From NCBI GenBank assembly GCA_017479425.1, contig JAFVCD010000008.1:1-63470 (forward strand): DNA of 63,470 bases. Direction: 5' to 3'. The DNA is from Oscillospiraceae bacterium (GTDB lineage: Bacteria > Bacillota > Clostridia > Oscillospirales > Oscillospiraceae). Shown here piece by piece: positions 12,001 through 21,799 of the stretch. A program made the position numbers and the translations under genes. The notes under the pieces are model-generated. The model saw only the letters and a program-made list of their open reading frames with translations. It was not told the origin of the DNA and searched no databases. Position 1 is the stretch's first letter. Each line of letters starts with the position of its first letter.

Positions 12001-12304
12001 GAGCGGAACTGCGCGGGGCCGCACACCTGCCTTTGATGGCAATATCCACCCGTTACTTACCCTCCGGACTCGGAACCGGCGAACCCGCGGCACACAGGCA
12101 AAGCCCCTGCTTAGTGCTGCTTGGTTCCCCACCTGACACGATTCACAAGCGCCTGTTGCGCGGGACCGGCTCTTCAGCATCCTTCGGATAAGGCAGACGA
12201 TACATACCACCACCGGGGACAGGAATTCATTCCCACTGTAGCGGATTGTGGGTTACAGGGCACCGCTATCTCCCCAACTAGTGCGGCTCGGCGCAATTCC
12301 GCTC
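12001..12304 (-). ncRNA. ffs: Signal recognition particle RNA, large bacterial type
   Basis: This RNA scaffold of SRP targets membrane proteins co-translationally. On the minus strand the terminal helix GAGCGGAATTGCGC pairs with GCGCAGTTCCGCTC at the other end. The 5' part has the Alu-domain signature TAGTTGGGGAGATAGCGGTG and CCCTGTAACCCACAATCCGC. The Ffh-binding domain IV is GTCAGGTGGGGAACCAAGCA with the GGAA tetraloop (12118-12137). Length of about 304 matches the long, Alu-containing Firmicute type rather than the short proteobacterial 4.5S form. It has a strong promoter at 12319-12347. Confidence 0.95.
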
Positions 12305-14109: not shown

Positions 14110-14195
14110 GTAAAGGTCAGAAACGGAATGATATGGGCGACACACTTCGCCTTTTGTTCTATCGCTGGCTTTACACGAAAGGAATGATAAAGAAA

Positions 14196-15098
14196 ATGCC
14201 AAAAGGTGGTCTTGGAAAGGGACTGTCGGGCGACTTTTTCGGCGGGCAGGGTCTTGCCGCGCTCCTCGGTGACGAGGTTGCGCAGGAGGATAGCGACGTC
14301 CGTAAGCTCCCGATATCAAAGGTCGAGCCGCGATCTAATCAGCCGCGCAAGGTCTTTGACCCTGAGTCTATCGCAGAGCTTGCCGAATCCATACGCGAGC
14401 ACGGCGTAATGCAGCCGATTGCAGTCCGCAAGGTCGGCGATACCTATCAGATAATAGCGGGAGAGCGCCGCTGGCGCGCGAGCCGCGAGGCGGGACTTGA
14501 TGAGATCCCGGCGCTCGTAATAGACTGCGACGAGCAGAAGGCTGAGGAGCTGGCGCTCGTCGAAAACCTCCAGCGCGAGGATCTGAAGCCGCGCGAGGAG
14601 GCTGACGCTCTGCGCGTGATGATGGAAAAGTACTCTTTGAGCCAGGAAAAGGTCGCGGAGATAATCGGAAAGAGCCGCAGCTATGTCGCAAACTCGCTTC
14701 GCCTGCTGAATTTGCCGGAAACAGTGCTGAACCTGCTCGACGACGGCAAAATCTCGACCTCGCATGCGAAAACGCTCCTTGAGCTCAAGCGGCAGGACGA
14801 TATGATCTACGCCGCGAACGAGGTGATAGAGAAGGGACTCGGAGTTCGCGAGCTCTCGAGCCTTGTCAAGAAGCTCAACACTCAGCCGCGCGAGCGTGAG
14901 AAGCCCGACCGCCGCCACGCCGACGGAGTTGATTACTACTCAGAGGCTGAAAAAGCGCTTACCGGCATACTCGGCCGAAAGGTACACATCTCGCCGGGCT
15001 TCAAAAAGGGCAGATTCGAGATCGAGTACTACGATAAGGACGATTTTGAGGTGCTCTATAACGCGCTCTTGCAGATCAAGGCAAGGGAGAAAGATTGA
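14196..15098 (+). CDS. spo0J: Chromosome-partitioning protein ParB/Spo0J
   Basis: This CTP-dependent DNA clamp loads at parS. The 300-residue protein starts with the ParA-stimulating peptide PKGGLGKGLSGDFF, has the CTP-binding motif GERRWRA near residue 89 and LVENLQREDL near 122. A helix-turn-helix that reads parS follows (SQEKVAEIIGKSRSYVANSLRLL), then a C-terminal dimer domain. The frame is open back to a TTG at 14106 that overlaps the soj stop, but the conserved N-terminus and AAAGGA upstream favour ATG 14196. The stop lies inside the first stem of the leader element at 15095. Confidence 0.94.
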   Translation: MPKGGLGKGLSGDFFGGQGLAALLGDEVAQEDSDVRKLPISKVEPRSNQPRKVFDPESIAELAESIREHGVMQPIAVRKVGDTYQIIAGERRWRASREAGLDEIPALVIDCDEQKAEELALVENLQREDLKPREEADALRVMMEKYSLSQEKVAEIIGKSRSYVANSLRLLNLPETVLNLLDDGKISTSHAKTLLELKRQDDMIYAANEVIEKGLGVRELSSLVKKLNTQPREREKPDRRHADGVDYYSEAEKALTGILGRKVHISPGFKKGRFEIEYYDKDDFEVLYNALLQIKAREKD

Positions 15099-15238
15099 AG
15101 CAAGCTTCAATTTTCATTAAATCAAAGCCGTTTTTCTCGCCGCAAAGCGGCAACCGAAAAACATGGCACTTTGTGACCATTCCTGTTTGTGGTCATTCAG
15201 TGCATTTTAGATAAAGCGAAAGGAATGGTCACAAAAAA
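15095..15238 (+). ncRNA. Candidate cis-regulatory RNA leader, copy 1 (before the 15239 gene)
   Basis: There are three stems. P1 is TTGAAGC/GCTTCAA (15095-15101 with 15104-15110). P2 is GTTTTTC/GAAAAAC enclosing GCCGC-AAA-GCGGC (15130-15162). P3 is GTGACCATTCC (15173-15183), which can pair either with the near segment around TGGTCA (15190-15195) or with the distant GGAATGGTCAC (15222-15232). The distant partner contains the AGGA ribosome site of the next gene. The same layout with compensatory changes stands before mfd (18155-18290), and 43 bases around P2 are identical. Regulatory role is inferred. Confidence 0.65.
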
Positions 15239-15580
15239 ATGACACTTCACAAGCGTTCTGACGCAGATGAGCAGGACGTAACGCCGCTTGAGGAAAAGCC
15301 GCGCACGAAAAAGCAGAGCCAGGAATCGGTAATAATCTACCTCGTGGTGCTGTTTACGGCGGTTTTCCTCCTGATTTTGCTCAGCTATTTTATGCATCAG
15401 CGCCAGAGCGAGGCGGAGCTGAGCAATCTCAGCGATCAGCATACCGAATACCGCCTGCGGACGGAGCAGTCGATTGCCGCACTGCAGGAGGAAAACGAGC
15501 GCCTCAGGCTCGAGCTTGAGGAGGCTCACGCGAAGATAGAAGAACTCGAAAAGGAAAAAGAGGTACAGTCCAATGATTGA
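15239..15580 (+). CDS. Small membrane protein with coiled coil (FtsL/DivIC-like topology)
   Basis: This protein of 113 residues is not assigned to a family. A charged cytoplasmic N-terminus (1-30) is followed by one membrane helix (about 31-51, VIIYLVVLFTAVFLLILLSYF) and a long acidic coiled coil to the end (EENERLRLELEEAHAKIEELEKEKE). This type II bitopic layout is that of FtsL/DivIC division proteins, but no family motif is visible, so this is only a topological likeness. Its ribosome site is in the 3' arm of the leader at 15095-15238, and it overlaps serS by 8 bases. Confidence 0.75.
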   Translation: MTLHKRSDADEQDVTPLEEKPRTKKQSQESVIIYLVVLFTAVFLLILLSYFMHQRQSEAELSNLSDQHTEYRLRTEQSIAALQEENERLRLELEEAHAKIEELEKEKEVQSND

Positions 15581-18143: not shown

Positions 18144-18154
18144 GGGCATAAAGA

Positions 18155-18295
18155 TTGAAACAAGTTTCAACCTTTACAGAAATTAAAGCCGTTTTTCTCG
18201 CCGCAAAGCGGCAACCGAAAAACATGGCATTTTATGACCATTCCTTTTATGGTCGTTTTGTGCCTCTAGCTTTGCGATAGGAATGGTCATAACCT
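18155..18295 (+). ncRNA. Candidate cis-regulatory RNA leader, copy 2 (before mfd)
   Basis: This is homologous to 15095-15238. P1 is TTGAAAC/GTTTCAA (18155-18161 with 18164-18170), a G:C to A:T exchange relative to copy 1. P2 is identical (18191-18223). P3 ATGACCATTCC (18234-18244) pairs either with the near ATGGTCGT (18249-18256, with one G-U wobble) or with distant GGAATGGTCAT (18280-18290), whose outer pair is again changed compensatorily from G:C to A:T. The distant arm contains the AGGA ribosome site of mfd, 13 bases before its ATG. Confidence 0.65.

Positions 18296-21799
<3,504 letters not shown>

Follow-up and report, generated by a model that had tools for sequence, protein, structure and literature searches.

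Why does a leader with two mutually exclusive pairings, one of which covers the ribosome site, stand before the start codon of a small putative membrane-protein gene in an Oscillospiraceae bacterium? The stretch of DNA analyzed here, called the window (63,470 nucleotides; GenBank assembly GCA_017479425.1, contig JAFVCD010000008.1), contains two copies of this leader, and an earlier note made from its letters had proposed a translational riboswitch or a protein-responsive leader. From comparisons of sequences, we consider it probable (about 0.88) that the leader is a small non-autonomous derivative of an IS110-family insertion sequence (IS), similar to miniature inverted-repeat transposable elements (MITEs), and that it owes its movement to an RNA-guided recombinase that acts in trans and is directed to translation starts. 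The riboswitch reading would be at most part of the story.

The small element, which is 142-144 nt long, is too short for a recombinase gene and none is found inside it. Autonomous relatives of about 1.6 kb do encode one: the single protein tested (L190) matches DEDD_Tnp_IS110 (PF01548, 1e-22) and Transposase_20 (PF02371, 5e-21). The left end of these IS is AAGGTTGAAAC, AAGTTTGAAAC or AAGTCTGAAA, mostly located right after a Shine-Dalgarno sequence (SD), and their right end is GAAAGGAATGGTCATAA. Both termini are alike in the small element (left AAGGTTGAAAC, right GAAAGGAATGGTCATAA), the ends of the first window copy having diverged to AAGATTGAAGC and GGTCACAA. Furthermore, the small element and the IS have a common target and orientation, mostly between SD and ATG and on the same strand. 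One IS from the same genus (genome G002; 81% protein identity) has ends that are exactly those of the consensus.

Upstream of the IS gene, a two-loop RNA is predicted, in which 8 of the 26 predicted pairs are changed on both sides and yet remain paired among 15 aligned copies. In its first (target) loop, one strand (GGAGGUGA / GGAGGTGA) corresponds to the SD and the other strand is complementary to AA-NN-AT. The guide NN is the same as the NN located between AA and ATG at the own insertion site of the element in 20 of 26 IS copies (45 of 52 bases agree), a set from which exact repeats such as L265 were dropped and which includes L181, a false regular-expression match that is not such an IS. 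Shuffling the sites (10,000 trials) gave a mean of 2.6 and a maximum of 9 exact matches. By eye, the guide of L303 also agrees with its own site, and the three variable guide bases agree in 4/4 copies of a divergent subfamily (three with 47-48% identity and one fragment). In 14 of 16 copies, the second (donor) loop (AACCUUAU, AAACUUAU or AGACUUAU) agrees with the left end (AAGGTT, AAGTTT or AAGTCT), compared to at most 13 matches in 20,000 shuffles; this set leaves out L198 (stretch deleted) and L265 (same as L178), and L183, whose left end is doubtful, was counted as a miss. This match to the element end concerns one half of the donor guide.

The small element is found nearly always in sense orientation before an ATG. 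The draft assembly of its own genome (G000; 1.77 Mb, 44 contigs, 84% complete) contains 10 full or nearly full copies, besides 19 more places that match chiefly its core hairpin P2 (E < 0.01). All 10 end with ..GGAATGGTCATAA or a near form followed by 2-4 bases and an ATG; further copies thus do stand before genes, which the earlier note had named as support for its reading. Across 99 genomes including the own one (E <= 1e-5, up to 8 candidates scored per genome), 18 have a match, sometimes to P2 alone. Among the 50 rows that were read (48 chosen by length and two partial matches added by name), the ATG of the longest open reading frame (ORF) is located at +1 to +4 in 45. The five exceptions are L059 and L060, which are cut at contig ends, L052 (ATG at -1), L039 (at -4, and again in frame at +2) and L033, which has ATA. 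At this last locus (G029:C110), ATA replaces ATG after the element, and translation begun in frame at the ATG within the element (GGAATGGTC) would yield the protein; the element may therefore supply the start codon. Copies that are identical over 131 bases stand before different genes, which is a sign of recent movement. It was also observed that L006, L007, L023 and L132 share an upstream dispersed repeat, GCGGAGACTTTGTCGACGCATTG, which in three of them lies directly at the left end of the element.

A scan of 84,980 species genomes with the pattern TTGTGC-N(8-30)-GAAAGGAATGGTCATAA, which itself does not require any ATG, revealed at least 119 stretches, 80 of them named, from Oscillospiraceae, Lachnospiraceae, Pelotomaculum, Desulfosporosinus, Synergistaceae bins and others. 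A pattern scan of viral contigs gave two matches, and a BLAST comparison of copy L003 with phages and plasmids gave none. These two matches and the 119 genome stretches listed, some of which are genus genomes again, make up 121 right-end rows. Among these listed matches, 95 of the 121 rows have an ATG exactly at +2 whose ORF is 40 or more codons long or continues past the end of the sequence. In the other rows, the ATG lies at +1 (n = 5), at -1 (n = 3) or, in one row each, at 0, +3 and +5; GTG stands at +2 in one row, and a start of this kind is absent from 14. Many of the listed rows are the right end of an element of about 1.6 kb with a gene on the opposite strand and not of the small element.

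Copies at three loci of the own genome are absent from sister genomes. At mfd, the empty site of G026 reads GGGGCTTAA followed by CCTATG, and in the window the element lies between AA and CCT. The gene next to L003 is preceded in G026 and G027 by CTCGGAGGTTAAA, then AA or GC, then ATG, and in G000 by CTCGGAGGTTAAA, the element, TT and ATG. In G026 and G027, parB leads straight into the gene that starts at 15239 in the window, the two overlapping by ATGA; the bases in between show some other difference as well. At the two clean sites (mfd and the gene next to L003), there is no target duplication beyond the shared AA. On the left side, GGAG or GAGG occurs within 13 nt of the edge in 27 of the 48 copies with a defined left end, compared to 11.5% of random positions at the same loci, and a looser set of SD motifs occurs near the edge in 41 of 48 (21.9% in the control); this survey covered 61 rows, two of which (L188 and L273) are IS-type right ends and not small elements. 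Since the left edge tends to follow an SD, the element sits between the old SD of the gene and its start codon.

These observations suggest the following mechanism. The bridge RNA made by the autonomous relatives would have a target loop directed to the translation start, its left guide copying the SD (GGAGGTGA) and its right guide pairing with AA-NN-ATG. The recombinase would insert circles of the element in one orientation between the SD and the start codon, with a crossover at AA, and it is this guided targeting of SD-ATG sites that would place the element at the start codon. The small element would keep the donor junction alone (..GGAATGGTCAT-AA-GGTTGAAAC..) and move in trans. Its insertion would separate the gene from its own SD by distance and, as the right end brings AAAGGA, the gene would stay translatable. 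The termini, the insertion and empty sites and the guide-site and guide-donor matches are shown here; from them we infer movement in trans, a transcribed RNA that acts as a bridge RNA, and use of the new SD. Support for this use comes from 14 loci that were fetched for mostly one-sided right-end matches, six of which have only AAAGGAATGGTCATAA or a near form before the ATG. The other eight comprise four full or partly deleted elements that keep the right end, three loci with another shared start (GGTCCTTATGG) and one that is not at a start. Alternatively, the lone right-end pieces could be the source of the IS end. A splicing reading of the SD-element-ATG layout was dropped, since an SD lies within the element itself and persists in decayed copies.

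Several points weigh against this mechanism. The right guide differs from the own site in 6 of the 26 copies (L181 among them), the left guide resembles the SD without a fixed register to the left flank in the main subfamily, and the strict SD is missing from 21 of the 48 left flanks. No matching transposase gene (E <= 1e-10) was found in the draft assemblies of the six genomes with strong copies (G000, G026, G027, G008, G029 and G021), G044, which also has a copy, being outside this search. With PF01548, seven draft genomes gave a single match over the cut-off, which belongs to another, unrelated subfamily (in G008), and three weak sub-threshold matches inside frames of about 1400 aa (in G000, G026 and G027). 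Lastly, neither the core hairpin P2 nor the segment A of the small element (Table 1) was observed in the IS, and both should be dispensable for mobility.

Table 1. Features of the two window copies, of the gene that follows the first, and of the second repeat family
Feature	Location	Strand	Remarks
Mobile element copy 1	15091..15234	+	AA core dinucleotide at both edges; between former SD region of downstream gene and ATG
Left-end hairpin P1	15091..15114	+	Arms AAGATTGAAGC / GCTTCAATTTT; putative donor half, the left end (GGTTGAAAC in consensus)
Core hairpin P2	15127..15167	+	GCCGTTTTTC TCGCCGC AAA GCGGC AACC GAAAAAC AT GGC; common to second repeat family
Segment A	15170..15184	+	Partner of B (near) or of C (far)
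Segment B	15190..15196	+	Near partner, TGGTCAT
Segment C	15219..15234	+	Right end AAAGGAATGGTCACAA; putative replacement SD AAAGGA (15219-15224); other putative donor half of IS110-type junction; 0 matches for a reversed control pattern
Downstream gene	15239..15580	+	113 aa; hydrophobic stretch, then coiled-coil-like part (by eye)
Mobile element copy 2	18151..18292	+	Before mfd, ATG at 18296
Second repeat family	L011-L029; relatives L040-L058, L084-L087, L158-L165		G000 contigs C13, C15, C22, C40 and others

The anatomy described by the earlier note was accurate: P1, P2, the middle segment, its near and far partners and the AGGA are all at, or within a few bases of, the places that it gave, and only its start at 15095 was slightly short, as the element runs over 15091-15234. 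This region has a predicted fold of -48.5 kcal/mol (z = -5.3) that none of 200 shuffles equals in stability. The motif GTGACCATTCC within segment A (15173-15183) occurs five times in the window with at most one mismatch (0.66 expected), four of the five being arms of the two copies. The far partner GGAATGGTCAC (15222-15232) includes the AGGA, and the far pairing of 15170-15184 with 15221-15235 is complementary at 15 of 15 positions. The note knew of no described RNA of this form, and the leader indeed has no match in Rfam at the gathering score, a permissive search giving only scores far under the family cut-offs.

The note had also claimed that the two pairings exclude each other and that one hides the SD, and this arrangement is kept across copies. 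In 31 diverse small elements, on which all pairing statistics are based and whose cells are related sequences and not independent events, standard pairs occupy 95.4% of the cells of the near helix (A:B) and 95.6% of those of the far helix (A:C). However, the covariation that the note asked of the stems depends on the helix. P1 and P2 have 9 pairs and 30 cells in which both partners changed, compared to means of 3.8 and 6.4 in shuffles, and the far helix has three such pairs, a number that none of 500 shuffles reached. In the near helix, such double changes are few (two pairs) and 68 of 500 shuffles reached as many. G-U pairs, which any one-sided change that keeps a standard pair necessarily gives, were compared with A-C cells, taken as a control. 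The near helix departs by G-U in 43 cells versus A-C in four, as expected if the sense strand folds, which makes an RNA role for this pairing possible. The far helix (six G-U and eight A-C) and P1 and P2 (14 and 21) show no strand preference and fit a DNA palindrome as well as an RNA, though P1 and P2 covary. Folding in context gave a median unpaired probability of the SD of 0.015, exceeding 0.3 in 9 of 58 copies, and the predicted equilibrium would thus keep the SD mostly paired. A switch, for example by upstream ribosomes opening segment C, would be possible.

The alternative that survives best adds to the IS110 explanation instead of replacing it: the element would be mobile as proposed and also be a portable cassette of translational control, its segments A, B and C being selected for defined, coupled or stimulus-dependent translation. 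Segment A was observed in the small element but not at the right ends of the IS, and yet its complementarity to C is kept; the wobble pairs of the near helix are strand-specific and decayed copies retain the SD. However, by eye, the right end of the IS also has a CCTT..AAGG hairpin over its SD, and a covered SD could therefore serve just to curb stray translation. We regard this addition as possible, while leaning against it.

A purely cis-regulatory RNA, in which a ligand would decide whether the near pairing frees the SD or the far pairing hides it and copies spread because the regulation is useful, now appears quite unlikely. Alternative pairing over the SD is the layout of translational riboswitches and leader switches, and the conservation of both helices, the G-U excess of the near one, the double changes of the far one and the position of the copies, in sense before ATG, all agree with it. 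Unlike these RNAs, the present element is mobile, has transposon ends and shows no gene theme: inspection, and Pfam for two window genes, reveal no evident common function of the downstream genes (the product of 15239..15580 has no Pfam match above the cut-off), three loci are empty in sister genomes, and no Rfam family matches an element whose ends are those of IS110 relatives. Furthermore, the double changes of the near helix stay within the range of shuffles, the far helix has no strand preference, and the SD is mostly paired in the predicted equilibrium. The riboswitch or protein-responsive leader of the earlier note is therefore not supported.

The three-hairpin anatomy, a core hairpin common to other repeats and the absence of strand preference in P1, P2 and the far helix would also suit a plain repeat that depends on a different transposase (for example, an IS200/IS605-type hairpin element), inserting at any place and persisting only where its SD rescues a gene, but this is highly improbable, since every one of the 10 full copies in the own genome is at a start codon, the junction has one position across genera and the IS110 relatives with the same ends show guide-site and guide-donor agreement. 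IS200/IS605-type transposition, which the anatomy had suggested, was dropped once an IS110 gene with the same ends appeared.

The surroundings of the first copy call for some remarks. The TGA of P1 (15096-15098) is the stop codon of parB, whose frame ends within the element (15087-15098, ..GAG AAA GAT TGA), and parB of the sister genome G026 ends with ..GAG GCG GGG AAA TGA, overlapping the next ATG. Before the likely true start of parB, the sequence GAAAGGAATGATAAAGAAAATG (14177-14198) resembles a decayed right end of the element, and in G027 and G008 AAAGGAATGGTCACAA and AAAGGAATGGTCATAA are retained at the matching position before parB. The window also encodes a bacterial large signal recognition particle RNA (12019-12286, minus strand, 174 bits).

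The core hairpin P2 is also found in a second repeat family with other outer hairpins (Table 1). Its members often lie directly 3′ of a -10 box (TATAAT followed by AATCGC..), end in their own TGGTATAAT and are in places in tandem. TATAAT occurs within the left 75 nt in 28 of 40 rows and within the right 75 nt in 23 of 40, and this family looks equivalent, at promoters, to the element that targets SDs. In other species of the genus (L047, L149-L157, L162 and L164), the core occurs in a third form (TTTTGCTCGCC..GGCAACCGCAAAA) whose outer hairpins also differ, for example TTTAATAA..TTATTACTCCGGC.

Short, structured, multicopy and non-coding elements are well known in bacteria, such as ERIC, Correia and REP elements. 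QMITE1 and QMITE2 share these features but, as far as the available part of their description goes (PMC5896051), the former often overlaps ORFs and the latter is mainly found in 3′ untranslated or intergenic regions, whereas the present element keeps to start codons and brings an SD with it. The closest relative in mechanism would be IS621 (Durrant et al. 2024, PMC11208160), which, in the portion of that article available to us, has, like the IS reported here, a DEDD recombinase with PF01548 and PF02371, a long non-coding end upstream of its gene, a fixed orientation, a core dinucleotide and a two-loop RNA with target and donor guides, and for which a minimal 22-bp donor was moved with the RNA in trans. 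However, the targets named there for IS621 are REP elements, compared here to translation starts (SD-AA-NN-ATG) of many unrelated genes, and a word search of that article found no mention of start codon or ribosome binding. Similarly, in the accessible sections on the seekRNA of IS1111/IS110 elements (Siddiquee et al. 2024, PMC11187229), RNA segments match both target strands and no extra target bases are gained, and a mini-IS of ISEc11 moved when the transposase and the RNA were given in trans. That mini-IS was engineered, whereas the small elements reported here form a family that occurs naturally, with no gene and no guide RNA that we recognised. These parts of both articles (PMC11208160, PMC11187229) name REP elements, attC sites and short linear sites as targets. 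In the open literature, with preprints and most subscription journals outside its scope, we recognised no publication that describes IS110 elements directed to the SD or to start codons.

Taken more broadly, and tentatively, as we put it a little short of an even chance, a lineage of RNA-guided transposons would have programmed its bridge RNA to the SD and the AUG, signals that are nearly universal at translation starts, making a target of any gene, and would have given rise to small mobile ribosome-binding-site cassettes with a built-in RNA switch, and a sister group that shares the core hairpin appears to act in the same way at promoter -10 boxes, carrying its own -10 box. The signal broken by the insertion would then be the signal carried by the element, which would show how a transposon reaches many safe sites. 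For the field of genome tools, these elements would offer naturally varied guide-target pairs and ready small donors. They would also explain a class of start-codon leaders of Clostridia that could otherwise be mistaken for riboswitches.
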